A DNA stretch of 64,000 bases from Onthophagus taurus (taxonomy: Eukaryota > Arthropoda > Insecta > Coleoptera > Scarabaeidae), in assembly GCF_036711975.1 (NCBI RefSeq), contig NC_091972.1:12281001-12345000 (forward strand), in the 5' to 3' direction. Both the position numbers and the translations under genes were made by a program. Under the pieces are notes generated by a model. That model saw only the letters and a program-made list of their open reading frames with translations. It was not told the DNA's origin and made no database searches. Shown in pieces: positions 33,907 through 57,000 of this stretch. Each line of letters starts with the position of its first letter. The first letter of the stretch is position 1.

Positions 33907-34329
33907 TTATTAAAAATGATAGGTTAAAAAACGTTATGAAGAAACAAATAAGTACGATTAGTTTATCTAAAAGGTTTTTTTTTTTAAATAGCTAATTGTT
34001 TATCACGGAAAGAAAACTCACATTTTTTCTGAGCCAATCTTTTTGTAATAAGTTTTCTCTTGAAATAAACATAGCTTTTTGCAACTTTATTATTATTAAG
34101 TTGATTATAACTTTTTTAAGTCACCTTTACTAACATCATGAGTAGAAACGTAAAGAAAACTAATAGGAAATGTTGAGAAGGATATATTAGGTACATAACG
34201 AGTACAAGTAATGTTAAAATCGATATGTTTCGCACTTTGTACACATAAAGTGAAGAGTAGTATTAAAATTTGATTTGTCAAAAATAAAAATTTCACAATT
34301 ATGTTATAAAGTGCAAAATAATTGAATCA

Positions 34330-34335
34330 TTTATT
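34330..34335 (-). terminator. Polyadenylation signal of the minus-strand GT31 gene
   Basis: AATAAA on the minus strand, about 130 nt after the stop codon at 34465. Confidence 0.55.
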
Positions 34336-34464
34336 ATTTAAGAAAAATACTGAACGATTCAATTACTTTTGAAATCTGGGAAAAGGATGTTTTTTAAAAT
34401 ATAATTCGAAAATGAAAAAACCGACTTTTAAAATACAACGTAGAAAAATCTTTTTTATGGGTGG

Positions 34465-37400
34465 TTAGAAAAATAATTGAAGCCCTAGGAATGTGAAAAA
34501 ATTACGTTTGTTCTGCGGTTTTTTCTTGCAATCCTTTTGCAAATTCGTCCTCCTGAGTAGATCATACAATAATCGCATTTCCGTTTCGTTCACATGGTGA
34601 GCCGTAATTGCCGTCAAATAGATGCACATGTCCATTTCCCGTTTGAGATATGAAAACCCTGGATGATTCTTTGGTTTGAGCTTGGCATTCACCGGTAACA
34701 TACCTTTAAACAAAAGATAGAACAAAATTGTATTCAAGCTTATAAATGAAAAATGGTTTTGTTCCTTACCGGTAATATATACGTCTTCTAAATAATAAAT
34801 AGGTGTGTCGAAAGACGTTTTGTACAGTTTTTGAACTACATCTAAAGACATCACATATCCTGTTCCAGAGAGATAATCTGGATATGCATCTTTATCATAG
34901 AGATAATACGGGGCTTTCCTAAAAATAAAATATACAAAGCAAATACAATCAATTCATAATATACTATTTAGAAAATAAAATGTTTTTATGACATGGCAAA
35001 TTCCATAAAAATAACACTTTATGGTCACGCAGAGTTCTGTAAAACTTAATCGTAGGTACTACAAATATAGGCAAAATTAAAATGTTATGAAAAACTATCT
35101 CCAGACAACTTACTAATAAGATTTTTGAGCTACATTACAACCGAAATTTCTGCATAATATATATTGAGGGTAGTTTGTTTAATAAAGAACATAGTCTCAT
35201 TTTAGAAATAATGAATTCATAAGATATTGTTATTGTGCAAGAAGTCAAAATATACTTACAAAAAATGGATGAACATCGAAATAATCTGCAGAAACGACAC
35301 AACGAATCTGTGTCCTGACAAAACAGGGAAAGAAAAGATATCATGAAAAGTTCATTTTCAGATTTTTCATTCCAGATTAGACGATAAATCATGAGAAATT
35401 GAAAAGAATCAATTTTTATTACTCGAATCTTTAAACGCGATTACTTCAAGACTACGTTTTTGCACCTCTTGGATACAACATCGCAACAACTAGTTGAGTC
35501 AGAGTTAGTCAAGATCTTCCTGACAATTGTTTGCTCAAAAATTTTCACTTATTTTTGTGTTAACCCTTAAGGATCAGTCATCAAATGAAACAATTATCAT
35601 ACAAGATTTAGGGTTGCTCCTATAATAGACCACCAATCCATTCTTATCAATATGTTTTAAAGCTCTAGGATTAAATATTTGATTACAATGAAGTTTAGGT
35701 TGTATTTTCAGAAAAATATTGGATATCAGTTTGAAAGGTAATTCAAATACATATTTGCATAAAGATTCAAAATTCAGCAACAAGCGTACTGAAGAGTCTA
35801 AGGTCAACCTCAGCAAATACCATATGGGACGAAATGAAGAAGTCCAATGACAAAGATCTACAAATTGTCCTTACAAATAACTCGCCCGGAACCAGACCTT
35901 GATGAGATGAGGAGATGGAGAGACAGCTGGGTGTCATTTTCTCAGGAGGTATTTCAGAAGCAAACCTTATCGGGAACAAGAAACCCAGACCATTGGGTCT
36001 GGGTTCAAAAACGTACAGGTTCCTATCATATTGCTCCATCATGAATTTGTTTGGGATAATTGCAAGTCCGATTACAATAAACAAATCAAATATTCAACCA
36101 TATCCTTCCAAGGTACAATAACAAGGCAAATCCATTTTTGACAGATTTAAAGTTATTGGTATTTTCTTGCTCGGAATGAAATTTTGCATCATCCGCTGTA
36201 GCAAGCAGCTAAATGTAGATATTAAGCTGTACATGGTCGAATTGGTGATTATCTACTTGACAACAATTAGCAATAACAAGGCATGTCCATTTTTGAAAAA
36301 TTTTAAGTTGGTATATCATTTCTCACTATCAAATTCAACATCATTTACTGCAGGAAGCAGGTTTAAATGTATATACTAAACTATACATGATCGTATTGAT
36401 GGTTGCCTGCTTTACAAAATTGAATACATAACTTGGCGATGCAAAAAAATGCATATTATGAATATTGGACACATTTAGTTAGGAGAAAAACACCGGAATG
36501 AAAAAGATTTCTAAGAGTGTAATATCTTAAAAAATTCGAATATATTATACATTTTCGAATATATCTAAATCTAAAATTAATCAAGAATGTTTGAACTTTA
36601 ATCAGTTAATTTTGATAAAACTCTTTACTTCCGGTATAAGTTAATATTTAATAGGCAATACTAGTTTTGGTTTATTTATGCATATTATTATATAGTAAAT
36701 ACACATAAATAAACATACGAACAAGGAAACCCGTTAAAATTCACAATGTAAATGTGAAAAATAAGTAATGATACACATTTACGACCGGCAATTTAAAAAA
36801 TTGTATAAATATACTACGTTTATTTTCGTTTAAGTAAACACGGAAATAAAATCTTACATACAAATTTGAGACCTAGTTTACGCTGATAACACTAGTTAAA
36901 TAACAGTGACTAATTCAAATTTGAATTTAAAATAAAATGATATTGTCGTTGAGTCATAAAAGTTTCTTTTCGAGTTATCATTAACAATTAATGATATTTT
37001 AACATGGTGGTTTTACATTAAATATATTTCATAACATTATTTATTGGCAGCAAAATTTGAAATGAAAATAATATTAACTTATATTTAAAATAAACTTACC
37101 ATTTGCTTGATGTTTGTCTTACTGGCGGAGCTTTTTGTATCAGAGATCCAAAGAGATCACTTTTACCCCTCCTCCGTTTCAAATATTTTATTAAAAGCGG
37201 TACATTCACGAACATATCGTCGTCAGTCTTCATAATGTATTTAACACTGTTCGTGCAATGTTTTGTAACAACCTTTAAAGTCATTAGAGATTTTAACGTT
37301 AAATTGTTGTAGGTGTCTAGGAACTGTTCCTGGATTATATCATTATGTTCGTTATACTCGTGCGTTAACTGATCCTAAAGAAAGAAATGTAGTTTTAGTT

Positions 37401-40382
37401 AATGATTAAGATTCAAAAACAATTAAACATTGTTTACTTGTAATGTATCATTGGTAACTTCCCCCAACATAAAATAGTAATCCACATTGAAATTTTGTAT
37501 GATTTTGTCTGAAGCCCATGTTTCCCTGATCACGTTTCGTTCGTCGAAGTTGGTGGGCGTGGACGTGATCATAATCAATAGGTCTGTCTTATTTTTGCAA
37601 AATTTCCCCGGCAACAGGATCGAGGTCAAATTATCCGGTTGTATATACAAGCTGACGTCTCTGGATCTATTATTTTCCCAACCATCAACAGGACCTATAA
37701 TAATCACCAGGTGTGCATCGATGTGTTTAAAATTATTTATTTTATCAACATCTACATTCGATTTGATGAATTTTTTAGTTAAGGTCAAGGATTTAATTTT
37801 TTTATTAATCTTACCAAATTTTTAACGAAAATGTAACTAATTAATTTTTAACAACAGCAAACAACAATAAATATTTTAAGTTGAAATAAGTTTCGTCAAG
37901 GTCTAATATTTGACCTGACAAACAAATTTTCCTGCTACTGTTTGACCTTACAAAGAAATCGCTAATCGATTATTTTTTACAAATTTAACAACCAACAATT
38001 TACAAAGATAGAAATGATTATATGAAACAAGACTGTGTAAATTAACCTTTAATAATTTATGTGAATGTAGGTGTTACTTCTTAAACTTTTTGTAATAAAA
38101 ATTTAATTCTGTTTGTTGTTTAATTGTTTAAAAATAATTCATTTATTTCATGCACAAGTTGAAGACGTTAAAATAAAACTTTGAATATTATTTGCTTTAC
38201 TCCTAACATAATTGATAATTATTATTGTCATAGAATGAATTCAACAAATTTCCTTGTAACCTCTTAACTATAACACTCGGCGATTACCAGGTCGTAATAA
38301 TCCGAAATTTAAGTGCAGTTTTTACCTGAGATTTTACCTGTTACGGTTTGATGACTCATTACTTTCTCTAATTCGAGATTTATCTGTATATTTTTCTCAG
38401 AAAGACAAGGCTAATGATACAATGCACTATATTTAGAATGAAAAATACTTTGCATTTTTGTAAGGTTACAAAATTAACAAAATTTGAACATGTTAGGAAT
38501 AGCAGATTAGAAGACTCTTAGGTCAATCTCAGGAAAGGCCATATGGAATGTCAAATATCAGAGGCCAACGCAGGTTTTAGGATTTTGTGAGATGGAGAAG
38601 AGAGCAAAAAAGATTTTGGCCAAATTTTTTTGCCTTTAAAAGAATTTTACCTTAGTCAGGTGATTAAGTTCTCCACTGGTATCATCACTGCCTTTTCTAT
38701 TTTGAATAGTTTTGTGATCAAACATGATTCGTTTATCTTTATTTAAGTGCAAGTTCAAAGAGTGTTCAGGTAAACTATCATTTCCGATTTTTCACAATTT
38801 CATCGAAATGTTATATCTGTATGTTTCACCATTATATACGAAAATAATGTTATATCGAAAAGTTTTGCATAATCATAAATAAACATACAATATCTTAATC
38901 GTGTATCTTTATTTAAAGACGATTGTAAATATTTGGAAAACATTTATTTGAGCAAAACATGAAACCATGTCTCGTATTTCGCTGTTAAAAAACGTTTCGT
39001 CCTGGCGTTTTCACGAATCACCAAGTATTTATGCTTACACACGTTAATACATGGGAAATTAACACACATTTAACTTTATAATTTAATTTAACTTTCTCAG
39101 TCTATGCCACGGCAGCTTAGACTTTAACTCAACGTTAGTTATGATCACCATTACAGTCAGATTAAAGGAAATATAATAAATAAACACAACATACAAGGCC
39201 GATCGATGATTAATTGCAACATGCGACAAGTTTAAATTTATCAATGTTGACATGGTAAAACCTGTAATAACATCGTCGAACATCCTGCGAGCTTCTTAGG
39301 TCAAATTCTTCCAACAATATTGATTATTTATGGTTTTAATTGAGATCAAAAAAGTGCAATAACATTGAACGTCTAGGGGAATGGTTGATATCGATGATGT
39401 GTGGTATTGATGCCAAATTAAGTTCTGAATACGATTAAAAAAACAGGTTCATGAATTCTATAAATAAATTCGTGATGTATTAAAGTTCGCTTATCAAATT
39501 GTGGTTTTATACTATACAAATCTAAACGTGTTGTTCTCTACAGATTATTTCAATAAACTTGTTGCTTGACACATATTATTTTCATGAGAAAAATTTTTGT
39601 TTTTAGTTTGCTTTCCCAATCTTTTACAACAATTAAAAAAGTAGAATATCTCTAGAGGTCTCGAGACCTCTTACGTAAGAAAAGCCGTAAATATGTTAAA
39701 AGTGTAACAAGTATTTAGTGTTGATAAAAATGGCAAACATATAGGAGTTATTTTGACGTCATTTTTGTTATTTATTTTTAAGATCGTAATTTATAGTAAT
39801 GTGGTGGATTGATTCGTTGTACAATTAATGCAAAAATAATCTATATGAAACTCCAATCATATTGTATTAATTAAAATGAAATTAATAATCGTTGTGTAAC
39901 AATTTTAAAATACTTTGTGCACGAAATGAAATACTACACTATATACAAGGTAAACTGCTATAAATAACCTTGTTCTTTCACCAAATCCAACAATAAAATA
40001 ACTTTCTTTTTTTATTTATATTATCTTCAACAAACAAATCATTTGTGTATTATGTAGTCCTACAAGAAGTAAATCAGGTGTTAACACAAATATTTTCTTA
40101 AGATTATCTAGGCAGAAAGGTAAAATAAACAATTTTAAAATGAATTATTTACTTTTTTGCAGGAATTTGAAATGATTAATGGTACACGCAATAGAAAAAG
40201 TTACATAATAAAAATGAATGTTTTTAGAAACTCTAACAAAGTGTAAAGTTAATTAAGTAACTTGTTAAAAAAAACTTACCTAAATCATATCTATGATTAT
40301 TAACAACCCAACAAAACCAACCAAAATAACCAACAATTGCAATCAAACCTAATATCATAAATGGTTTGGCTTTTTTCTTCAT
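34465..40382 (-). CDS. Beta-1,3-galactosyltransferase-like type II membrane protein (GT31)
   Basis: Five exons join in frame: 40382-40280, 37751-37438, 37374-37100, 34918-34770 and 34703-34465, 359 residues. Exon 1 encodes a basic MKKKAKP start and a membrane anchor (FMILGLIAIVGYFGWFCWVV), as in Golgi type II transferases. The catalytic domain shows the GT31 blocks in order: ERNVIRETWA, DYYFMLGEV, YNNLTLKSLMTLKVV, KYIMKTDDDMFVN with the metal/UDP-binding DDD at residues 190-192, YLSGTGYVMS and YLEDVYITG. Members move galactose or N-acetylhexosamine from UDP-sugar to glycoproteins or glycolipids; the acceptor here is unknown. The exon 1 to exon 2 join rests on matching phase and a weak acceptor (aatgtag), so the stem is the least certain part. 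A divergent GT31 gene starts 1.47 kb away. Confidence 0.85.
34919..37099 (-). other. Intron of the GT31 gene with repeats
   Basis: The 2.2-kb intron between the 275-nt and 149-nt exons. It contains a tandem duplication at 36121-36423 and a stretch near 35783-35830 that recurs near 38503-38560 in another intron of the same gene. No further exon is recognised; the neighbouring gene has only a 52-nt intron at the same position. Confidence 0.6.
36121..36423. repeat. Two diverged tandem copies of a ~155-bp unit
   Basis: Blocks beginning acaaggca, then tccatttttga, recur at 36121 and 36277 and share later landmarks: the gcaagcag/ggaagcag block, a run of aaatgtagatatta/aaatgtatatacta, and tacatggtcg/tacatgatcg. 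This points to a two-copy satellite-like duplication. Confidence 0.6.
37752..40279 (-). other. First intron of the GT31 gene, nothing else recognised
   Basis: AT-rich 2.5-kb intron. A 38503-38560 segment matches 35783-35830 (shared blocks around gaagactct...aggtcaa.ctcag and ccatatgg). A frame at 39083-39283 on the minus strand contains a hydrophobic stretch but has no splice support. Confidence 0.5.
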
Positions 40383-41398
40383 AGTTTTTTGTCTTTAGTT
40401 TAGCTTCTCGTTCTTTCTCGTTTACAGTTTAAAATGACTAATTATTTAAAACGGCATCGCGATATAAAAAGAAAAATTGAGATTCATCGTAATCATCTGA
40501 GAAGAGTCGTCGTTGTGATATGAGATTGTCGGATCCAAGAAACCGAACATATTCTTTTATAATTATGTAAAATAAAACAAACACAGATTATTTACTTATT
40601 ACATTGTTGCGTTTGACCGTTAATGAAATTCCGGCGCGAACTTTCAATGGACTTTTGTTAAATGACTGACTAGAACAGTATTTTTTTGTAAGATACTCAT
40701 TGTCTTGCGGTAGTGGTAGTACTTCGGCTAACACTATGCGACACTGCGATCATCGGGAAATTTAATCCTTACATTTTACCAGTAAAAGAAATTTGATGAC
40801 ATCTTGTTTTCAGGAGTCGACAAAAAATTTAATGGGAGTTTCAGCCCGTGTTAAAAATTCCTTTCGGTTGCTGAATATTTTTAGTTTTGATTCTAAAACA
40901 TAGATGGTAGCTTTATTTTTTGGAAGATCTTATATTAGCTTCTCAACACTAGGTAGCACTTTGAAAATATATAAACGTATTTTCTTGGTTCATTCATATC
41001 TTCACATTTAATTTAATTATGTTAATTTTTTGTTGATATTATATGTACATCAACTAAACATCAATTTAATCTTTACACATTGTCAAACATATTGGGATTT
41101 TTTTTCAATTTACGTCTAATTATCATTGCTATTATTATTGATTTTAATATGATATCAAAATCTGATGGTTAAAACATGAATGAAAAGAATAATAAACATT
41201 TTATGAATGTATGCGTCATGTTGACAAACCGAAAAACAATAAAAACAAATTGAAACTATTTCGAAAAGTTTTTGGAACAATTTTGTATCACATTTTATTA
41301 TCATATCAGGTGTCTGAGAATTTAATTTTTCATTAGTGGCGTATGATATGAGTTATCGACAAGGTGTCGAATCTTTTGACATCTAGTAGTGGTGGAAC

Positions 41399-41470
41399 GG
41401 ATATCCGGCAACTATCCGGTATCCGGCCAATCCGGCTATTTTTTAAAATCCGGTCGAAAACCGGATAGTT
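41399..41470. repeat. Cluster of ATCCGG/CCGGAT motifs, possible hAT terminus
   Basis: Within about 70 bp, ATCCGG, AATCCGG or its inverse occurs six times, preceded by agtggtggaacgg. Some hAT elements have termini starting CAGTGGTGG and subterminal CCGG-type transposase sites. No matching opposite end or transposase was found, so this is at most a terminal fragment. Confidence 0.35.
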
Positions 41471-41483
41471 ACCAAATTACATA

Positions 41484-41558
41484 TCCTTCATCAGGCACTA
41501 ATTAATTACACAATGTACTTTCAGTCGTGCCTGATGAAGGAATAAGTTATTCCGAAAC
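41484..41558 (+). ncRNA. Hairpin with partial hammerhead-ribozyme-like core
   Basis: TCCTTCATCAGGCAC (41484-41498) is the exact complement of GTGCCTGATGAAGGA (41527-41541). The second arm contains CTGATGA (41531-41537), a self-pairing GGAATAA/TTATTCC (41539-41553), then GAAAC (41554-41558), the order of conserved boxes around stem II of a hammerhead ribozyme. Against it: there is an extra A before stem II, and no convincing stem I or cleavage site was found. Such motifs are known from Penelope-like retroelements, which may be the source. Confidence 0.25.
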
Positions 41559-41851
41559 TTGTTGCACTACAGTTTTAATAGTTCTATCAATATTGAACGA
41601 TGAATATTGAATCTACGATTGCTAAACTTCGAGGAACTGTTTTGGAAAAAGAAATTAAAAAAATCTGTACGCAATTTTGTATAAATGGCAGAAAAGACAA
41701 CTCCTTTTGCCAATCTATGTCAATAACCTATAGCAATTAATTAGTAGTTTCTATTTTTTGTTGACATAATTGTCATGAATTTATTCACGTTATAACCTTT
41801 AACTTTTATTATTTCCCCTTATAAATTTAATTAAAGAAATTCAGTTTAAAT

Positions 41852-44094
41852 ATGAGATTTACCATAATAATCTCTTTGCTCATTTTAGTTTCATCTTCCT
41901 GTAAGTGCTTGACTAATTTGTAATAATTTTATTTTATTTTAGATGTTTTATTTATTCATTTGATTATTTAAAGACGGAAAATCTTGTGATAACGAATATG
42001 TAAAAGTAAAAATTTGGAAGTTTAAATCAACAATTCCACCTGCAAAAGATTTGAAACTTGAAGAAAACACAACATTATTATTACCTAATTCATCCTCACC
42101 GATTTTGTGTTGTAACCTTTTAATCTTTATTTTTTCACATCCGGATCATTTTGAACATCGCGAAGCAATTAGAGAATCATGGGGATCTTATGAGAGAGTA
42201 AAAAATAACACTGTTTGTAAGAGATTTTTTGTGGGAATTACAAATAATGAAGACATTCAAGTAATGATCGATTATATACATTTATTTAATTATTTTTTGT
42301 CTCTTTTTAGAGTAAACTCAACGATGAATATTATGAGTATAACGACATTGTTCAAGTGAATTGTACAGAATCAGATGCTACAACAAAATCTCTTCAGATG
42401 TTAAAAGTGATTTATCTCTATTATCAAAATTGTACTGAATTTATTTTGAAAACTATTGACAGTGTTTATATAAATTTGGAACCTATATGGAACATTTTGC
42501 CTAAACTCCCACATTTATTTCTAGCTGGAAATTTACAAGTAGAAGAAATCGCAACGAAATGTACAGAAAAGTGTAGGTAAAGACAATTTCTAACATTAAA
42601 TAAAGTTAATGTATTTAATAATTAATATACTTTAGCGACAAATTCTATCCAAGATACTTATTATCTTCCCTATGGTTAATGTCTCTTGATACGGCTATAA
42701 AGTTGTTTAAAACCGCTGCAACAACACCTTATTTTGAAATTGAAGATGTTTATATTACTGGTTAATACTTATTTATGTATTCATACTACATTTTTTAAAT
42801 TATTTTTTGTTTCTAGGTTATTTAGCGGAAAAATTATCGATAAACAGAACTGATTTTCCTATGTTTACATATATTGAGAACAAAATAAATCCTTGCATTC
42901 TTAAAAAAATTGTTATTTCACAAAACATGACACCAAATGATATAATGATGGTTCACGAAAAACTAACGGACGTAAACTTGAATTGCACAAAGACAATATG
43001 CAATTTACCAAGTTATTAAGATATGATTAACCGTTTTGTTTAAATTAATTTATTTCTTTTAGCCCCTCAAGTAAATCCTAATTTTTCCGACGATGTCAAG
43101 TGTTTTAATTTAGATACTTTTAAAACTTTGATACTCCCAAAAAATTTTTGTCGTAAATCGTCAAATTTATTAATTATAATAGCATCGGCTACCAAAAATA
43201 ATCTTCGTAGAGATGCCATAAGAGAAACATGGGGTAATTTGCGTTCGGAACGAAAAGCACAAAAATATTTTCTTCTAGGAAATGATAATTTTAAAATTCA
43301 GGTTAATCTTAATTTCATGTTTTTAATAATTATGTAAACTCAAAATGTAGGAATTGATATTAAAAGAATCGTACTTCTACCAAGATATTATTCAAGTTGA
43401 CTTTGAAGACACAAAGTACAATTTAACACTTAAATCTATCGTGATGTTAAAATTAGTAACCACGTTTTGTAAGCAAAATGTTACATATCTTGTAAAAACT
43501 GACGATGATAGTTATATTAACGTAAATTATTTGGAATGGGTTTTAATGAAGCGAGAACCAAAAAGAGTACTGGTTGGGATACTTTATAAAAATTCACCTA
43601 GGCGAACGAATACGATAGATAAATGGTACCTTTTCTCCTCTAACTTCAAATTATTGATTAATTTTTAATATTTTAAGGTACATCCCTAAAAATATCTACA
43701 AAAAGAAACACTATCCCAATTATCTTTCCGGGGCAGGATACGTAATGTCGATGGACGTAGCAAATTTGCTTTATCAAAAATCATTTGAAGAAATGCTTTA
43801 TGTCCTAGAAGACGTTTTTATTACAGGTAAAAATCGTTCAACTTTAAATTAAAAATAAATTAATCTTGTGTTATTCTAGGAATGTTAGCAAAGGCTGTTA
43901 ATATAAAACCGTGTACTTTTCATGGATATGAAATGGAGCAACGTCCTAAAAAAATTGATTGGCCGAAATGCAGTTTTAGTAGTTTTGTAATATCTCATCC
44001 TAGAACAAGTATAGATATGAACGATGTCGATGATTTAGTCAAGTTGGCCCAATCGTCTAATTGCAAAAAATGTTATCATTTACCTCAATGTTGA
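41852..44094 (+). CDS. Tandem double-GT31 secretory protein with a degenerate first domain
   Basis: Nine exons join in frame: 41852-41900, 41974-42260, 42311-42576, 42636-42760, 42817-43011, 43063-43301, 43351-43625, 43678-43826 and 43880-44094, 599 residues. The N-terminus (MRFTIIISLLILVSSSC) looks like a signal peptide rather than a basic type II anchor. Domain 1 keeps HREAIRESWGS, KRFFVGIT and EIEDVYITG, but the DDD box is IDS (residues 161-163, in FILKTIDSVYIN) and the G-x-G-Y-V block reads SSLWL. Domain 2 has RRDAIRETWGN, YLVKTDDDSYIN (DDD 438-440), YLSGAGYVMS and LEDVFITG. Domain 1 is therefore probably inactive, while domain 2 could be an active UDP-sugar transferase. The join at 43011/43063 uses a GTTATT donor; an alternative is two separate genes, but domain 2 has no start of its own. 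Confidence 0.82.
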
Positions 44095-44350
44095 ATTTTA
44101 TTATGTGAAAATTCAAAATTAAAAATGCATCCAATTTCAACAATATAATACAAGTCATATCACTCTGTGAATATTAATTTTTGTTACTCTGTGCAACTGT
44201 GGCGGTACTTGTTCTGCCGAATCCTGAATGGAGTCATTAATCCAGAACTTGTCCAGTTTTTAAAAAACAATTGGCAGACTAATATTTGCTTATGCAATGT
44301 GGAAAGTTTAATATGCGAGTGTGCTTATACATTTATTTAGTATTTATGTA

Positions 44351-45710
44351 CAGAGTGGTTCAAATTCGATGTCCGAATAGGCTAACTCGGAAACTATAAG
44401 AGTTAGAAAAAAAGTAGCTTACATGTCATGATCTCGTTTTTCGAGAAATTGCTAATGCCGAAAACCTCATAGCGCTATCGTCTTTTGTTTTTCCCCTAGA
44501 GGCTAAAATTGAAAATATCGTAAAATCAATAAGTGCAATTATCTTGGTTATTATTATAGGTGGAGTATTATAACTACAACATTATATGGACACTTTTATA
44601 CAGAGAATTTCATGACAGTCAAAAAAAATTTTTTGGTTTTAAATTTTGAGATATGAGAATTTTTGTTTTTTTAAGTGGAAACAACCACTGATTATTCGCT
44701 TATTAAATTAGTTATTTTTTTCGGATTACAAAAATGTAGGGTTCGACAGGTCTATTTCTTATTGTTTTAGAATAAAGCTAAAAATAAACTTTTTTTATAA
44801 AATTTCCATCTAGGTTCGTCGAGGAAATTAAATTTACAGTTTCCTGTAAGTTACGGGGCGGTAGGTAAAATCTAAAAAGTTAACAATTAAATACGAAGAT
44901 AACTTCTGGTATTTAAAAACAAATAATTTTTTAATATGTAACATTCTAACAAGTCAAAAAGTTAAAGTGACACTTCAGAAAATTTTTGAATACAAACAAA
45001 TGTTGCTATCTTTATTTGAATTAAAAAAGAACATGAGCGCCATCTATCGATAATTTATTAAGTCATTTAAATATAACATTAAATCGTAATAAAAATTATG
45101 AAATAATGCAATCTATTCCAACTTTTGTGTAAAACATATATAAATTAAACAGTTCAACAAATATATTTGTTTCAAATATCTGAAATATGTTTTTTTAATT
45201 TTTAGTTATAGAACGATAATTTACAGGAAACTGTAAATTTAATTTCTTCGACGACACTATAAGAAAAGTTTATTTTTAGTTTTATTCTAAAACAATAAGA
45301 AATAGACCTGTCAAACCTATATTTTTGTAATCAGAAAAAAATAACGAATTTATTAAGCGAATAATCAGTGGTTGTTTCCATTTAAAAAAACGAAAATTGT
45401 GATAATATCTCAAAATCTAAAACCGACAAAATTTTTTTGACTACGTCATCAAATTCTCTGTAAAAAAGTGTCCATATAATGTCTTAGTTATAAGACTCCA
45501 CCTATAATAATAACCAAGATAATTACATTTGCGTGTTTTACGATATTTTCAATTTTGGTCTCTAGCGGAAAAACAAAAGACGATAGCGCTATGAGGTTTT
45601 CGGCATTAGCAGTTTCTCGAAAAACGAGATCTTGACATGTCAGCTACTTTTCTTCTAACTCTTATAGTTTTCGAGTTAGCCTATACGGACATCGAATTTG
45701 AACCATCCTG
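44351..45710. mobile_element. 1.36-kb foldback element with ~500-bp inverted arms
   Basis: The left end starts CAGAGTGGTTCAAATTCGAT and the right end finishes with its imperfect complement (..CGAATTTGAACCATCCTG); TA flanks both. The arms are about 44351-44858 and 45216-45710, around a ~357-bp AT-rich spacer. The termini resemble those of the small element at 27351-27690 (CAGG.TGG..C), suggesting one TA-targeting family. No transposase frame is present, so it is non-autonomous. It lies 256 bp downstream of the double-GT31 stop codon. Confidence 0.8.
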
Positions 45711-45840
45711 TACAAATAATTGTTGCTTGTATTTTTATCCTGGGTAGTACCGATTTCATAGGTGTTCAAAATCCAGCATAAAATTAAACATTAGTTATTA
45801 AACACACAGTTTAATAAAACTGTTATTAACTGATTAATGT

Positions 45841-46032
45841 TTGCTACTGACTTGTTATTATGATTCTCTAGAAAGCTCGTTTTATCTTTGGTTAGTATAC
45901 GCCTATGCCTACACCTATCTTAAACAGTATGAACAGTTGGCTATTGATTTTCAGAATCTGTTATCACTAATGGTGTTACATATACTTTACTTAATGCAGT
46001 GTGGCCATTATGAGATATGTGAAATATTATAG
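45841..46032 (+). pseudogene. Possible odorant-receptor fragment
   Basis: One short frame reads YYDSLESSFYLWLVYAYAYT and ends IDFQNLLSLMVLHILY, which resembles the segment of insect odorant receptors between an extracellular Y-P-[YF]-D-type loop and the next helix (sp.y...Y..q...D.l...l..H). The frame stops after 63 codons and no other part of a receptor was recognised on either side. The resemblance is weak and could be chance. Confidence 0.22.
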
Positions 46033-47335
46033 TCCAACTCATTGCAAATAATTCTGCCGTTAGATTGAATTGTAATTATCGAGCAACTGCTGGAGAATGA
46101 GTTCACTTGACGGTTATGTTAACCATGCTGACGGCGATAAATATATCCCTACATATATCCTGCAACATATATATTTAACGACCATCCCTGGTCATTATGA
46201 TGAAGGTTATGCGGTCTATATAACGTCATATCAGCGTTGTGGAGAATGATGTGGAATCCTTCACGGATGTTATTATGACAGCAACCGAGAGTACTGTTCA
46301 GTACCCCAAAGGAAAATGTAAATTCTTTGAAAAAATGACAAATGGCAATTTATTTAGGTTATCAAGAACCGAACGTCTTTTGCATACATGTGAGTGTTCA
46401 GTTTAAAACCAAAATATTGGTAAACAGCATTTCTCGAGAGTCTCATCAGTGTGACGTTATATCTGATGGCTCATTATAGCTAATGGATTTTTTACTCAAT
46501 TTAGCCATCTACCATATGGAACCCGATATGAACATGTATTTTGTCAAAGTGTCTCATGGAAGAAATGATTTGGATCAGTAGGTTCTACTGCATATCAATG
46601 TCCACTTTTCCAATAGTTATACATTAGACAAACATCTAAACTGCAAAACTCCGTTTCAAAAATCAAGCCTTTCACAGGTATGAATTCCAACAGTGCTAGA
46701 TCAAATACACCAAAACAGCAGTAAATAACATCATATGTTTGTTTATAAGATAATTAATATTATTTTAAAGACTTTTGGCAACAACAGTTTCAACTGAGGA
46801 TGTCTCCTGAGGTTGTTGAGGTAGCATACTTAAAAATGTAATGGCACATTTTCAAGTGAGGAGCAGAATAATATTAAATCCTCTATCTGGAGCATAGGAC
46901 CTCAAATAAACATCCTCCCCTCTCTTCCGTGCCATCTTTACTTCATCAACAGTAGTATAGCTATGTGACTTCAGGACCAAAATTCCATAAGATTTAACAT
47001 AGGGGTCCGAAATCACATTTTATCCCCACCGCTACCTCCTTTCGAGGTTCTGATCACGCCCACATTTCAAATAAAACATACGTCATTTTACTAAAATAAA
47101 ACGCACTAATCGAATTTCAAAGTTTAACACTTCCTGCAAAAGAATCAGGTGCCCCAAAAATTCCTTATTTATTGTGCCATGAAATATAAATTTAAAAAAA
47201 ATCGTATCTCAAGAACGAATTGAGATATCATCATGAAATAAAGAACATTTTAAAGCAAATTTAATGAAGATTTAATACGCCATATATAATTTCTAATTTT
47301 CTATAAGCATCGTTGTTATGACAACCTTAACGGGA

Positions 47336-47440: not shown

Positions 47441-47456
47441 ATTTTAATTGATCTAA

Positions 47457-48027
47457 AAATATTTTCTTTGGTTAATCCACTTACTTTGCTTATAATTTCA
47501 TCCATTTACCCATTTTTAATTAAATACAACCTTTAAATCCAATTAATTGTTTTTCATTAAAAAACTTCAAAATTCAACGTCAATTTTGACAATCAACTGC
47601 AATATTTGGATCTTAATCACCATGCTAACCGAGTCAAGTTGGATAACCTTAAAATAATAAAATTTTATTCCGATTTTTTATCAATTCTAACCTAACTTTT
47701 ATTAATTTTAAAACAATTCGAATTCTTTACGATTATCTCGCATTCATAACAAATTCGTTAATTGTAATTAATTTAAACCGATTCTAATTAAGAGAAATAA
47801 ATTAAAAAATTTTTTTTTTGATTTAATCCACTTACCTTATTTATAATTCCATAGATAAACCAATTTTGAGTTAAATACAGCCTTTTAAACCAATTAAATA
47901 CGACTTTTTCCTTAAAAAAACTTAAATTCAATTTCATTTTTGACTAGTACCTGCAATATTTGGATCTTAATCACCATGGTAACCGAGTCAAGTTGGATAA
48001 CCTAATAATAATAAAATTATAACCGTT
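47457..48027. repeat. Two direct copies of a ~210-bp unit, ~350 bp apart
   Basis: Copies at about 47457-47668 and 47809-48027 share many blocks in order, including ttaatccactta, aaatacagcctt-like text, and a well-conserved end containing ctgcaatatttggatctta then accgagtcaagttggataac. Their middle (caacgtcaattttgaca) also resembles the unit of the 51298-51560 array. Confidence 0.65.
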
Positions 48028-54002: not shown

Positions 54003-57000
54003 TTAATATCCGGCATAAAATGCTTGTTGTTGTCGGGGTGTTTGCCTAAACGTTTGATAGACAGGGACGTATCTTGGAGATTGAAGCGGTTCAATTCTAT
54101 AAACATAATCCGAACTGGCTTGATTTAGCGTAGGATCAGCTGCTACATAACGATTTCTTTGTACGGCATTGTAATTGTAATCGTTTTGCGAGGAAAATCC
54201 CGTTGGAAAGTTACGTATTGGCAAATTAGGTATGGTTGGATTTAAAGCATCATTCAACGTCACATCATATTCATTTTCATCTAAATCTAACGGATTTTTT
54301 TCAACCGGTTTTTCAGTTGTTGTTGTTGTCGTCGTTATTTTAACTATATTAATACGACTCACCGGTCGGTTTGTGATTGGTTTAAAATCCTCTTCAGATT
54401 TAGTTTTTAATTTTGATAAAGGTTTTGATTTTTGAGTTTCTTCCGGTTGATCTTGTCTAAGATTTTCTTGTTCTTTTAGGGGTGGGTTAAATTTTGTGCT
54501 GACAACTTCTTCAGATTTAAGACCTATCGGATGTAATCCTCTTGCCGAATAAGGATTACCACCCCTACTGGGTAAAAATGGGCGCTTTACAACTTTAATA
54601 ACTGGTTCTTGTTTTTCTTTAATTGTTTCTGGAACGATATCTTTGATGGTTGTTGTTGGTTCTTCTGTAGATTTGCTTAAACTTTCTTCATAATCTGCGT
54701 ATTCTTCAATTACAGGTCGTCTTCTACTTCCGGAACCTAAACGTCTATCTTTAGAGTTTTGTGGCCTTTTTGTTGTTGTTGGTCTCTTATACACCTCTTC
54801 ATCATCATATTCTGACGATTTTGGTTTATTAAAATATGATCTGTTTGGAGGTTTTCTTTCTGGTTTTCTACTTTGAGTTCTTTCTTGGTTCTTATCTTGA
54901 TTCCTATCTTGGTTTCTTTCTTGGTTTCTATCTTGATTTCTATCTTGATTTCTATCTTGGTTTCTATCTTGAGTTTTTTTTGTATCCCTTACAACCTCTT
55001 CTTCTTCATAATCATCATAATATTCGTACTCGATTGGGGAAGAAGTAGTTGTTTTTGGTACATATTTACTTTGCTCATTTAAAGGAATCGGAGGTCTTAT
55101 CTTAGGCGGTCTTTTTCTTTCATAAACCGAAAGCGGGGCTTTTGTTAATGGTGGTTCTTCAGTACTCACATCACTTTTTACTTTAACTTCTGGTTGTTTT
55201 GGTTTGGGTTTATCGTCGTTACTTCGATTTCTTTCTTCGTTTCGATTATTTCTTGGTCTCTCGTCGTTTTTATTCCTTTTGGGTCGATCTTCCATTTCTT
55301 TATCGCCGTCAGAATCTCTATTTCGATTCTTTTTTCGATTTCTTCTCGGTGCTTCGTCATCGTAATCATCATCATCAATTGGTCGTCTAGTCCTTTTTTG
55401 TGGTCGTTCATAGTGTCTATCATAATCTTCATCTTCTGCGGGTCTTCGCTTGTTCGGTCTTCGTTTTCGATTGGGTCTGCGAACTTCTTCTTCATCATCG
55501 CGACTCTCCTCAACATCTTTATCATAATCTTCGTCATCTTCGTAACGACGTCTATCTTCTTTGTTTCTACGATTTTGTCCTCGGCGGTCAGGACGCCTAT
55601 AAAATCAAATAATAAGAAAATTTAATAAATTATAAGAGTAGGATTTATTAATTACCTCCTTGATGGTCTTCTCTTCGAATAAACTTCATCTTCGTACTCT
55701 TCGTAATCGTCTTCATAAACGGGCCGCCTATAATGAGGCCTTTTTTGATATCTCCTTTCTTCGTATTCTTCATCTACGTATTCATCGTCATAGTATTCGT
55801 ATCTTTTGGGCGGTTTTCTGTAACGAAATCCTCTTCCAGGACCAGTGGCTCCGGGTCTTCGATTTAAAATGGGCATTATTGGGACGGGTGTAACTGGAGG
55901 TTGAGTTACAATAACTGTTGGTTTTACTGTTGTTGTCGTTGCTGCTTGATACAAAGCATCGTTTCTATGCCAAAATTTTTTTGAATTCACACAATCGACT
56001 TCAGAAACGAAGTGGCAAATAAACGTTTTTTGGTCGAAAGCTGTGTAATTGGCGCATAAAAAGTCGTAGCGGACTCCGAAAAGACAATGATGATAAACCT
56101 GACGAAAAAATAAAATAAAACTTAGTTTCAAGTAGATTTACCTTGAAATCTTTGCTAAGAACAACATTTCAGATTTCCTCTTCGACCTTTTGAAATCGTT
56201 ACATCATAATACATCAATTACTTTTTTTAATGGCATCGTTAACGATTAACAAATTGAGATTAGCTTTTTAAATACGTAATCTATATATTAGTTTTTTATG
56301 TAAGTTAGCAAAAGTGAACGCGTCCCAAAAAAAAATTTCGCCCCATCATCATCGCTCAATGAACCATGACGCAAAGAAAGTGTAGAGAATTTGATTGGTT
56401 TCGTTTGTCGTCGCTTGCAGGAAGAGGACACATTCACAATGAAAAGACCTTTCATATAGGTGAGTGAGCAAATGAACACGAAGAAATTGAAACTTTATTC
56501 TAAAATCTTTGTAGATCTTAACGAAAGACAGAAAGTGAAAGCAAGGAAGGTTAGGTGAGATTGATTATATGGAGCAAAACTGTCTATTAGTGTCATAAAT
56601 GATATATTTTCTTTTTATTTAATGATATTTTATAGTAAAGGTGAAACATCCAATTAGAAAATGAATTTAAAAATTTAAAAGATCGATGAGATGAAATAAT
56701 AATCATTGTTCTTAATGAAAATGTCAAGCAAACAATTTACGACGTTCATTTCCTTTCTAAATTTAATCAATTATAATTATTTAAATTAGAAAGAAGAATT
56801 TCCTTTGTGCATCTCACCTTTTCATCGGAGCACCTCTTATTGCAAAAATTTCAATTTCATTGCATTTTAATTTTTAAAAACAACCTTGTGGTTATATTTT
56901 CGATTAAAAACCGCGATGATAAGGTATTAAAAAAAATTCTCACCTGACATTTGTGAGGTACGCTTGCATAAAAGCCATCGTGAAGACCGTCACACTTGAA

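Follow-up and report, generated by a model that had tools for sequence, protein, structure and literature searches.

The locus described here raises the question of whether two neighbouring GT31 glycosyltransferase domains, one degenerate and one bearing the landmarks of an active enzyme, are read as a single protein or as two, and of what part the degenerate domain may play. It lies in a window of 64,000 nt from the beetle Onthophagus taurus (the whole stretch analysed, positions 12,281,001 to 12,345,000 of contig NC_091972.1), and all coordinates below are those of the window.

Gene structure and domain content

Exon joining from the DNA of the window led to a forward-strand gene at 41852-44094, in which nine exons form 1800 nt in a single frame, encoding 599 residues and a stop. 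All eight introns are GT..AG, with lengths of 49-73 nt, which bears out the nine in-frame exons that an earlier, sequence-only reading had proposed. The features are as follows, the N-terminal and C-terminal GT31 domains being called half 1 and half 2.

41852..41900, forward: exon 1, signal-peptide-like start (MRFTIIISLLILVSSS), ending in a phase-1 donor
41974..42260, forward: exon 2, N-terminal part of half 1, with REAIRESWGS
42311..42576, forward: exon 3, half 1, with IDS where DDD is expected and the uracil Asp absent
42636..42760, forward: exon 4, half 1, with SSLWL where the G-loop is expected and EIEDVYIT retained; it has 24 nt fewer than its counterpart, exon 8
42817..43011, forward: exon 5, end of half 1, with the metal His replaced by Gln
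43012..43062, forward: putative joining intron, 51 nt, phase 1, donor CAA/GTTATT and acceptor TTTTAG/CCCC
43017..43019, forward: TAA, which would end half 1 if the joining intron were retained; aligned with the stop of half 2
43063..43301, forward: exon 6, half 2, with RRDAIRETWGN; its frame, followed upstream, reaches a stop without an ATG
43351..43625, forward: exon 7, half 2, with KTDDDSYIN
43678..43826, forward: exon 8, half 2, with SGAGYVMS and VLEDVFIT
43880..44094, forward: exon 9, half 2, with ISHPR, which includes the metal His, and the stop
44118..44123, forward: ATTAAA, 24 nt past the final stop and the first AATAAA or ATTAAA there (41801-44700 scanned)

Exon 1 was the single first-exon candidate to qualify on the forward strand of 40400-43010, the criteria being a start ATG, a length of 12 codons or more, a hydrophobic segment and a donor of phase 1 with a score of at least 5. 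Its hydrophobic start is short, unlike the anchor of the neighbouring GT31 gene described below, and inspection by eye together with one hydropathy score supports the signal peptide that the earlier reading had placed there.

The profile check of each half suggested by that reading was run, with exon 1 prefixed to both queries. Against a curated cut-off of 23 bits, Pfam Galactosyl_T matched half 1 with 78.3 bits (E-value = 8.5e-22) and half 2 with 142 bits (E-value = 2.5e-41). Half 2 also matched the Fringe profile with 31.5 bits, far less than its Galactosyl_T score, while half 1 matched Galactosyl_T only and not Fringe; the GT7 family was absent among the profile matches of both halves up to an E-value of 1. 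By sequence, the solved structure nearest to half 2 is human B3GALT5 (E-value = 9.1e-36) and the one nearest to half 1 is human B3GNT2 (E-value = 4.7e-14).

A third GT31 gene and the common intron layout

A further GT31 gene, here called M, which the earlier reading did not mention, occupies 40382-34465 on the reverse strand, divergent to the tandem gene.

40382-40280, reverse: gene M, exon 1
37694-37438, reverse: gene M, exon 2
37374-37100, reverse: gene M, exon 3
34918-34770, reverse: gene M, exon 4
34703-34465, reverse: gene M, exon 5

Its product scores 158.8 bits with Galactosyl_T and has an intact DDD, and its start carries a longer hydrophobic stretch that by eye resembles a membrane anchor. 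Three internal introns, of phases 0, 2 and 1, are common to half 1, half 2 and M; the first and third fall in identical alignment columns, and in half 1 the second is shifted by one residue, next to a gap. Phase 1 is also common to the intron behind the anchor exon of M, the intron behind exon 1 of the tandem gene and the joining intron. By this common layout, each half is a full copy of the exon set that lies downstream of the first exon in a stand-alone gene.

Half 2 shares 38% identity with M, 36% with B3GALT5 and 30-31% with half 1. Trees were built from five sequences after removal of exon 1, which is identical in both test sequences and therefore biases the tree. The AU test gave 0.34 for the two halves together, 0.051 for half 2 with M and 0.72 for half 1 with M, none of them rejected at 0.05; RELL and c-ELW exclude half 2 with M, the pair of highest identity. 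The trees support no single order of duplication, the proposal that the two halves are each other's closest relatives included.

The proposed join between the two halves

Half 1 ends in LPSY followed by the TAA at 43017-43019, and half 2 ends in LPQC followed by the final stop at the aligned position; the TAA therefore looks like the old terminus of a first copy. Such an aligned stop is what would be expected of a separate, or once separate, protein. The joining donor, at 43012, sits 5 nt upstream of this TAA and deviates from the donor consensus GTRAGT. It scores 5.29 on a splice matrix derived from the remaining 11 donors in the same genes, which are predicted themselves and range from 0.26 to 10.28 when each is left out, and 5.5% of the 6759 GT in the window outscore it. 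The objection that this donor is too weak was rejected, since three of the 11 accepted donors score lower (0.26, 4.68 and 4.75). Within exon interiors, exon edges being passed over, no phase-1 GT among 941 positions equals its score, so that by the rule of three a comparable donor within the last ten codons would be an event of about 3% or less; one phase-1 GT on an exon edge, at 42817 where exon 5 starts, reaches 5.48 without serving as a donor in the model. The acceptor of exon 6 scores 8.28 and does not discriminate, because every model needs it. With 51 nt, the joining intron compares with 49-73 nt for the seven others.

A start codon belonging to half 2 alone, which the sequence-only reading had named as evidence against a fusion, was not found upstream of exon 6: the frame of this exon runs into a stop after seven codons, none of them ATG, and the first ATG inside half 2 is at 43444, beyond the RETWG motif. 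A private start of half 2 in the 43 nt following the TAA was ruled out, as an in-frame ATG is absent.

On balance, we lean towards a fusion of a live GT31 half with a dead GT31 half that supports it. One transcription unit would then give a soluble protein of the secretory pathway, whose single chain holds a catalytically dead GT31 fold followed by an active beta-1,3-glycosyltransferase. To judge by the gene structure, it looks like an intron that swallows a stop merged two genes: of two adjacent GT31 copies, the first would have acquired a phase-1 donor just before its stop, and this new donor would have been spliced to the acceptor of exon 2 in the second copy, which lacks a signal exon of its own.

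Somewhat unlikely, in our judgement, is a locus without any fusion, in which exon 1 is spliced alternatively to exon 2 or to exon 6 and yields separate dead and live GT31 proteins, the dead one ending at the TAA of 43017-43019. Such products would resemble Cosmc in being a pairing of pseudoenzyme and enzyme, here under one promoter. The donor of exon 1 and the acceptor of exon 6 are both phase 1, their direct splice is in frame and encodes 308 aa, the donor of exon 1 scores slightly higher than the joining donor (5.99, leave-one-out, against 5.29), and the aligned stops of both halves point the same way. Separate products would require, however, a skip of four exons over introns of 49-73 nt. 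In Drosophila, as stated in the available part of PMC5762160, intron-spanning recognition is likelier where introns are shorter than the flanking exons, and introns of 40-50 nt are slower than those of 60-70 nt. If short introns are recognised across the intron in this way, removal of the 51-nt intron is favoured over the four-exon skip. A transcript ending at 43019 would, moreover, have no AATAAA or ATTAAA in the next 339 nt (43020-43358, within the scan of 41801-44700), and a phase-1 donor this good near a stop is unlikely to be there by chance.

Less probable still is a regulated 51-nt intron, which would give the dead GT31 when retained and the fusion when spliced, the live GT31 arising from the splice of exon 1 to exon 6. 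If the intron were regulated, splicing at one locus would determine how much pseudoenzyme is made relative to enzyme. As to the fusion that the earlier reading had put forward, the proposed join is in frame, but the fusion is less secure than was implied, given a TAA 5 nt inside the putative intron and an exon 1 to exon 6 splice that is equally in frame; a splice of exon 4 to exon 6 would likewise join phase 1 to phase 1.

Residues lost and kept in the two halves

We mapped the functional sites of B3GNT2 (PMC7948508) and beta3GalT5 (PMC11969544), as given in the available extracts of both papers, onto a five-sequence alignment. This confirmed the motifs earlier read in half 1, namely IDS and SSLWL beside the fold motifs REAIRESWGS and EIEDVYITG, which are present. 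Half 1 has KTIDSVYIN where half 2 has KTDDDSYIN, so that the first residue of its DxD is Ile and the third Ser, and YLLSSLWLMS where half 2 has YLSGAGYVMS, the two invariant Gly of the G-loop being replaced by Ser and Leu. Among the sites described in those extracts, the uracil-contacting Asp falls in a gap of half 1, Gln replaces the metal His, and Cys replaces the acceptor-lid Trp, followed by seven gapped alignment columns; half 1 lacks the residues found at D126, D156, D158 and H285 of beta3GalT5. Kept, on the same basis, are the catalytic-base Asp (beta3GalT5 D243) with the preceding Glu of xED, and the donor-site Lys corresponding to beta3GalT5 K134, K154 and K197. With respect to the signature of active enzymes, xED alone is retained, while IDS, LSSL and Q replace the DxD, the G-loop and the C-His.

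Thirty-nine residues are invariant across the four other GT31 sequences, and half 1 has 25 of them and has lost 14 (36%). Of the 10 that are donor or metal residues 7 are lost, against 7 of the remaining 29 (two-sided Fisher p = 0.019, with a grouping made post hoc). When the catalytic Asp is grouped with the site the counts become 7/11 and 7/28 (p = 0.033), and when the G-loop Gly are placed outside the site group they become 5/8 and 9/31 (p = 0.11), which makes the enrichment weaker. By these substitutions, half 1 appears inactive with respect to both donor and metal.

Half 2 has DDD, SGAG, LEDV and ISH aligned with B3GALT5 and B3GNT2, so that the DxD, G-loop, xED and C-His are all present. 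The position of Tyr128, the general acid of beta3GalT5 according to the extract of its structural description, is Lys in half 2, Tyr in M and Phe in B3GNT2. Because of this Lys the donor sugar of half 2 is not readable from sequence. The description of this domain as intact holds for the four landmark motifs, with this Lys as a qualification.

Probable maintenance of half 1

Half 1 looks like a maintained pseudoenzyme, as far as its coding sequence indicates. Its frame is open across 290 codons in a window of 32% GC, the other two frames having 23 and 29 stops, and its splice sites are preserved. When neutral drift was simulated to 36% changed codons, the share of invariant residues that half 1 has lost (14/39), none of 1000 copies stayed free of stops from either start (half 2 or M); at 10% changed codons about 7% of the copies did. 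N-glycosylation sequons number eight in half 1, where shuffling predicts 3.1 (p = 0.005); the corresponding figures are 3 and 2.5 in half 2, and 6 and 2.6 in M (p = 0.03). These observations, together with a catalytic Asp retained although most donor residues are gone, argue against half 1 being a nonfunctional copy, recently decayed or still decaying and passively transcribed. We think such decay improbable, even though several catalytic motifs have gone from half 1 and its branch is the longest, at 1.74 substitutions per site against 1.05 for half 2 and 0.71 for M (exon 1 removed).

That half 1 is an enzyme still, metal-independent or using another donor in the manner of GT14, which is active without a DxD, seems very unlikely: it keeps the catalytic-base Asp, the xED Glu and three donor-site Lys, and metal-independent GT-A enzymes with basic residues in place of the DxD exist (extracts of PMC7948508 and PMC7185993), but it lacks, all at once, the uracil Asp, the metal His and both invariant Gly of the G-loop, and has Cys for the lid Trp with seven gapped columns behind it.

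Search for relatives and other features of the window

In a search for orthologues, of which none was found, a profile of the three GT31 units of the window gave in viral contigs just one remote GT31-like frame, with the motif MDDDCSVN (L001:4986-5663, an IMG/VR contig). A query with half 2 alone matched no pattern, and one with half 1 alone returned a single stretch that was not confirmed; two scans of genome contigs, with 173 and 4 pattern matches, confirmed no relative. Both collections consist of viruses and prokaryotes and are therefore uninformative on insects. Rfam gave no match in 34000-46500.

Elsewhere in the window, a long near-palindrome at 44347-45714, which begins some 250 nt downstream of the tandem gene's stop, has arms of 287, 92, 82, 60 and 38 nt with 78-95% complementarity and resembles a foldback element or MITE. 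A direct repeat occupies 47455-48000, with a spacing of 351-354 nt and second copies 78-82% identical. On the forward strand, a frame at 30569-31420 matches Ig_3 and fn3 weakly, in each case under the curated cut-off, and has by eye a likely membrane span; it looks like a cell-surface Ig protein. On the reverse strand, 55655-56137 matches chitin-binding CBM_14 (23.7 bits, cut-off 22.1), and 1300-2253 matches Methyltransf_FA (24.6 bits, curated cut-off 24.2). Next to the CBM_14 match, at 54006-55604, is a long frame of highly charged sequence. These domain matches, the short introns and the low GC are in keeping with an insect.

Comparison with known GT31 partners

To our knowledge, dead GT31 partners are few: Cosmc, CHPF/CHPF2 and the N-terminal half of B3GLCT. 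B3GLCT is the beta-1,3-glucosyltransferase of Peters plus syndrome and its domains are Fringe-type, while Cosmc belongs to another GT31 subfamily. Human B3GALT5 and B3GNT2 are single-domain, membrane-anchored proteins, and differ from half 1 in that their donor site is complete.

A tandem of a GT31-like half dispensable for catalysis and a catalytic GT31 half is already known from B3GLCT, a published case (PMC8233153) that was overlooked when the present arrangement was called unrecognised. According to the available text of that paper, B3GLCT is a GT31 protein of two domains, the N-terminal, GT-like one being dispensable for glucose transfer, while expression of the protein requires both halves; a chaperone or substrate-binding role was proposed for the N-terminal half, with a separate enzymatic activity also considered possible. 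The likeness to the tandem gene extends, within that text, to a signal peptide, an N-terminal GT31-like half that is dispensable in B3GLCT, and an active C-terminal GT31 half. The differences are threefold. Both halves of the tandem gene are Galactosyl_T and not Fringe-type, with Galactosyl_T far above Fringe in half 2 and Fringe absent from the matches of half 1. Each tandem half has the intron layout of the neighbouring stand-alone gene M. Finally, the tandem protein ends in CYHLPQC, with neither a KDEL-like end nor the ER-retention REEL by eye. In B3GLCT the two GT domains resemble one another more than they do other GT31 proteins (same extract of PMC8233153); in the tandem gene a tree pairing the halves is not rejected (AU 0.34), and by identity half 2 is nearer to M and B3GALT5 than to half 1.

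Concerning separate partners, most GT31 donor residues are missing from CHPF, to which a stabilising role in CHSY-CHPF complexes is assigned (available part of PMC12748766). CHPF/CHPF2 with CHSY1/CHSY3 thus offer, on that account, a GT31 domain poor in donor residues that stabilises an active GT31 partner, but these are separate proteins, each with a GT31 domain followed by a GT7 domain, that heterodimerise, whereas the tandem gene would place both its GT31 halves in a single polypeptide. Cosmc (C1GALT1C1), the chaperone of C1GALT1, is described in the extracts of PMC7185993 and PMC5493369 as a GT31 relative without DxD and xED. It is similar in that a DxD-less GT31 relative aids an active one, and differs in being a separate protein that has lost the xED kept by half 1.

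By analogy with these systems, the most probable role of the dead half is to help the live half fold, stay stable or bind its acceptor. Half 1, which would be unable to bind a UDP-sugar with metal, may have become a built-in partner of half 2 for folding, stability or acceptor presentation. The earlier reading rightly placed a degenerate domain beside an intact one, and its suggestion of a pseudoenzyme that folds or assists half 2 is the best available; the assisting role is argued by analogy.

The tandem gene looks like an independent origin of the B3GLCT-like design from beta3GalT-like genes. An insect fusion of dead and live GT31 halves was not found in the literature among the matches listed, and the gene may already be in databases. 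It is an incremental case and not a startling one, in which the parent arrangement is still legible, with three GT31 units of the same intron layout and two of them merged over a surviving stop. If transcripts confirm the fusion, the locus would offer a direct test of a dead GT31 half supporting its live neighbour in cis.
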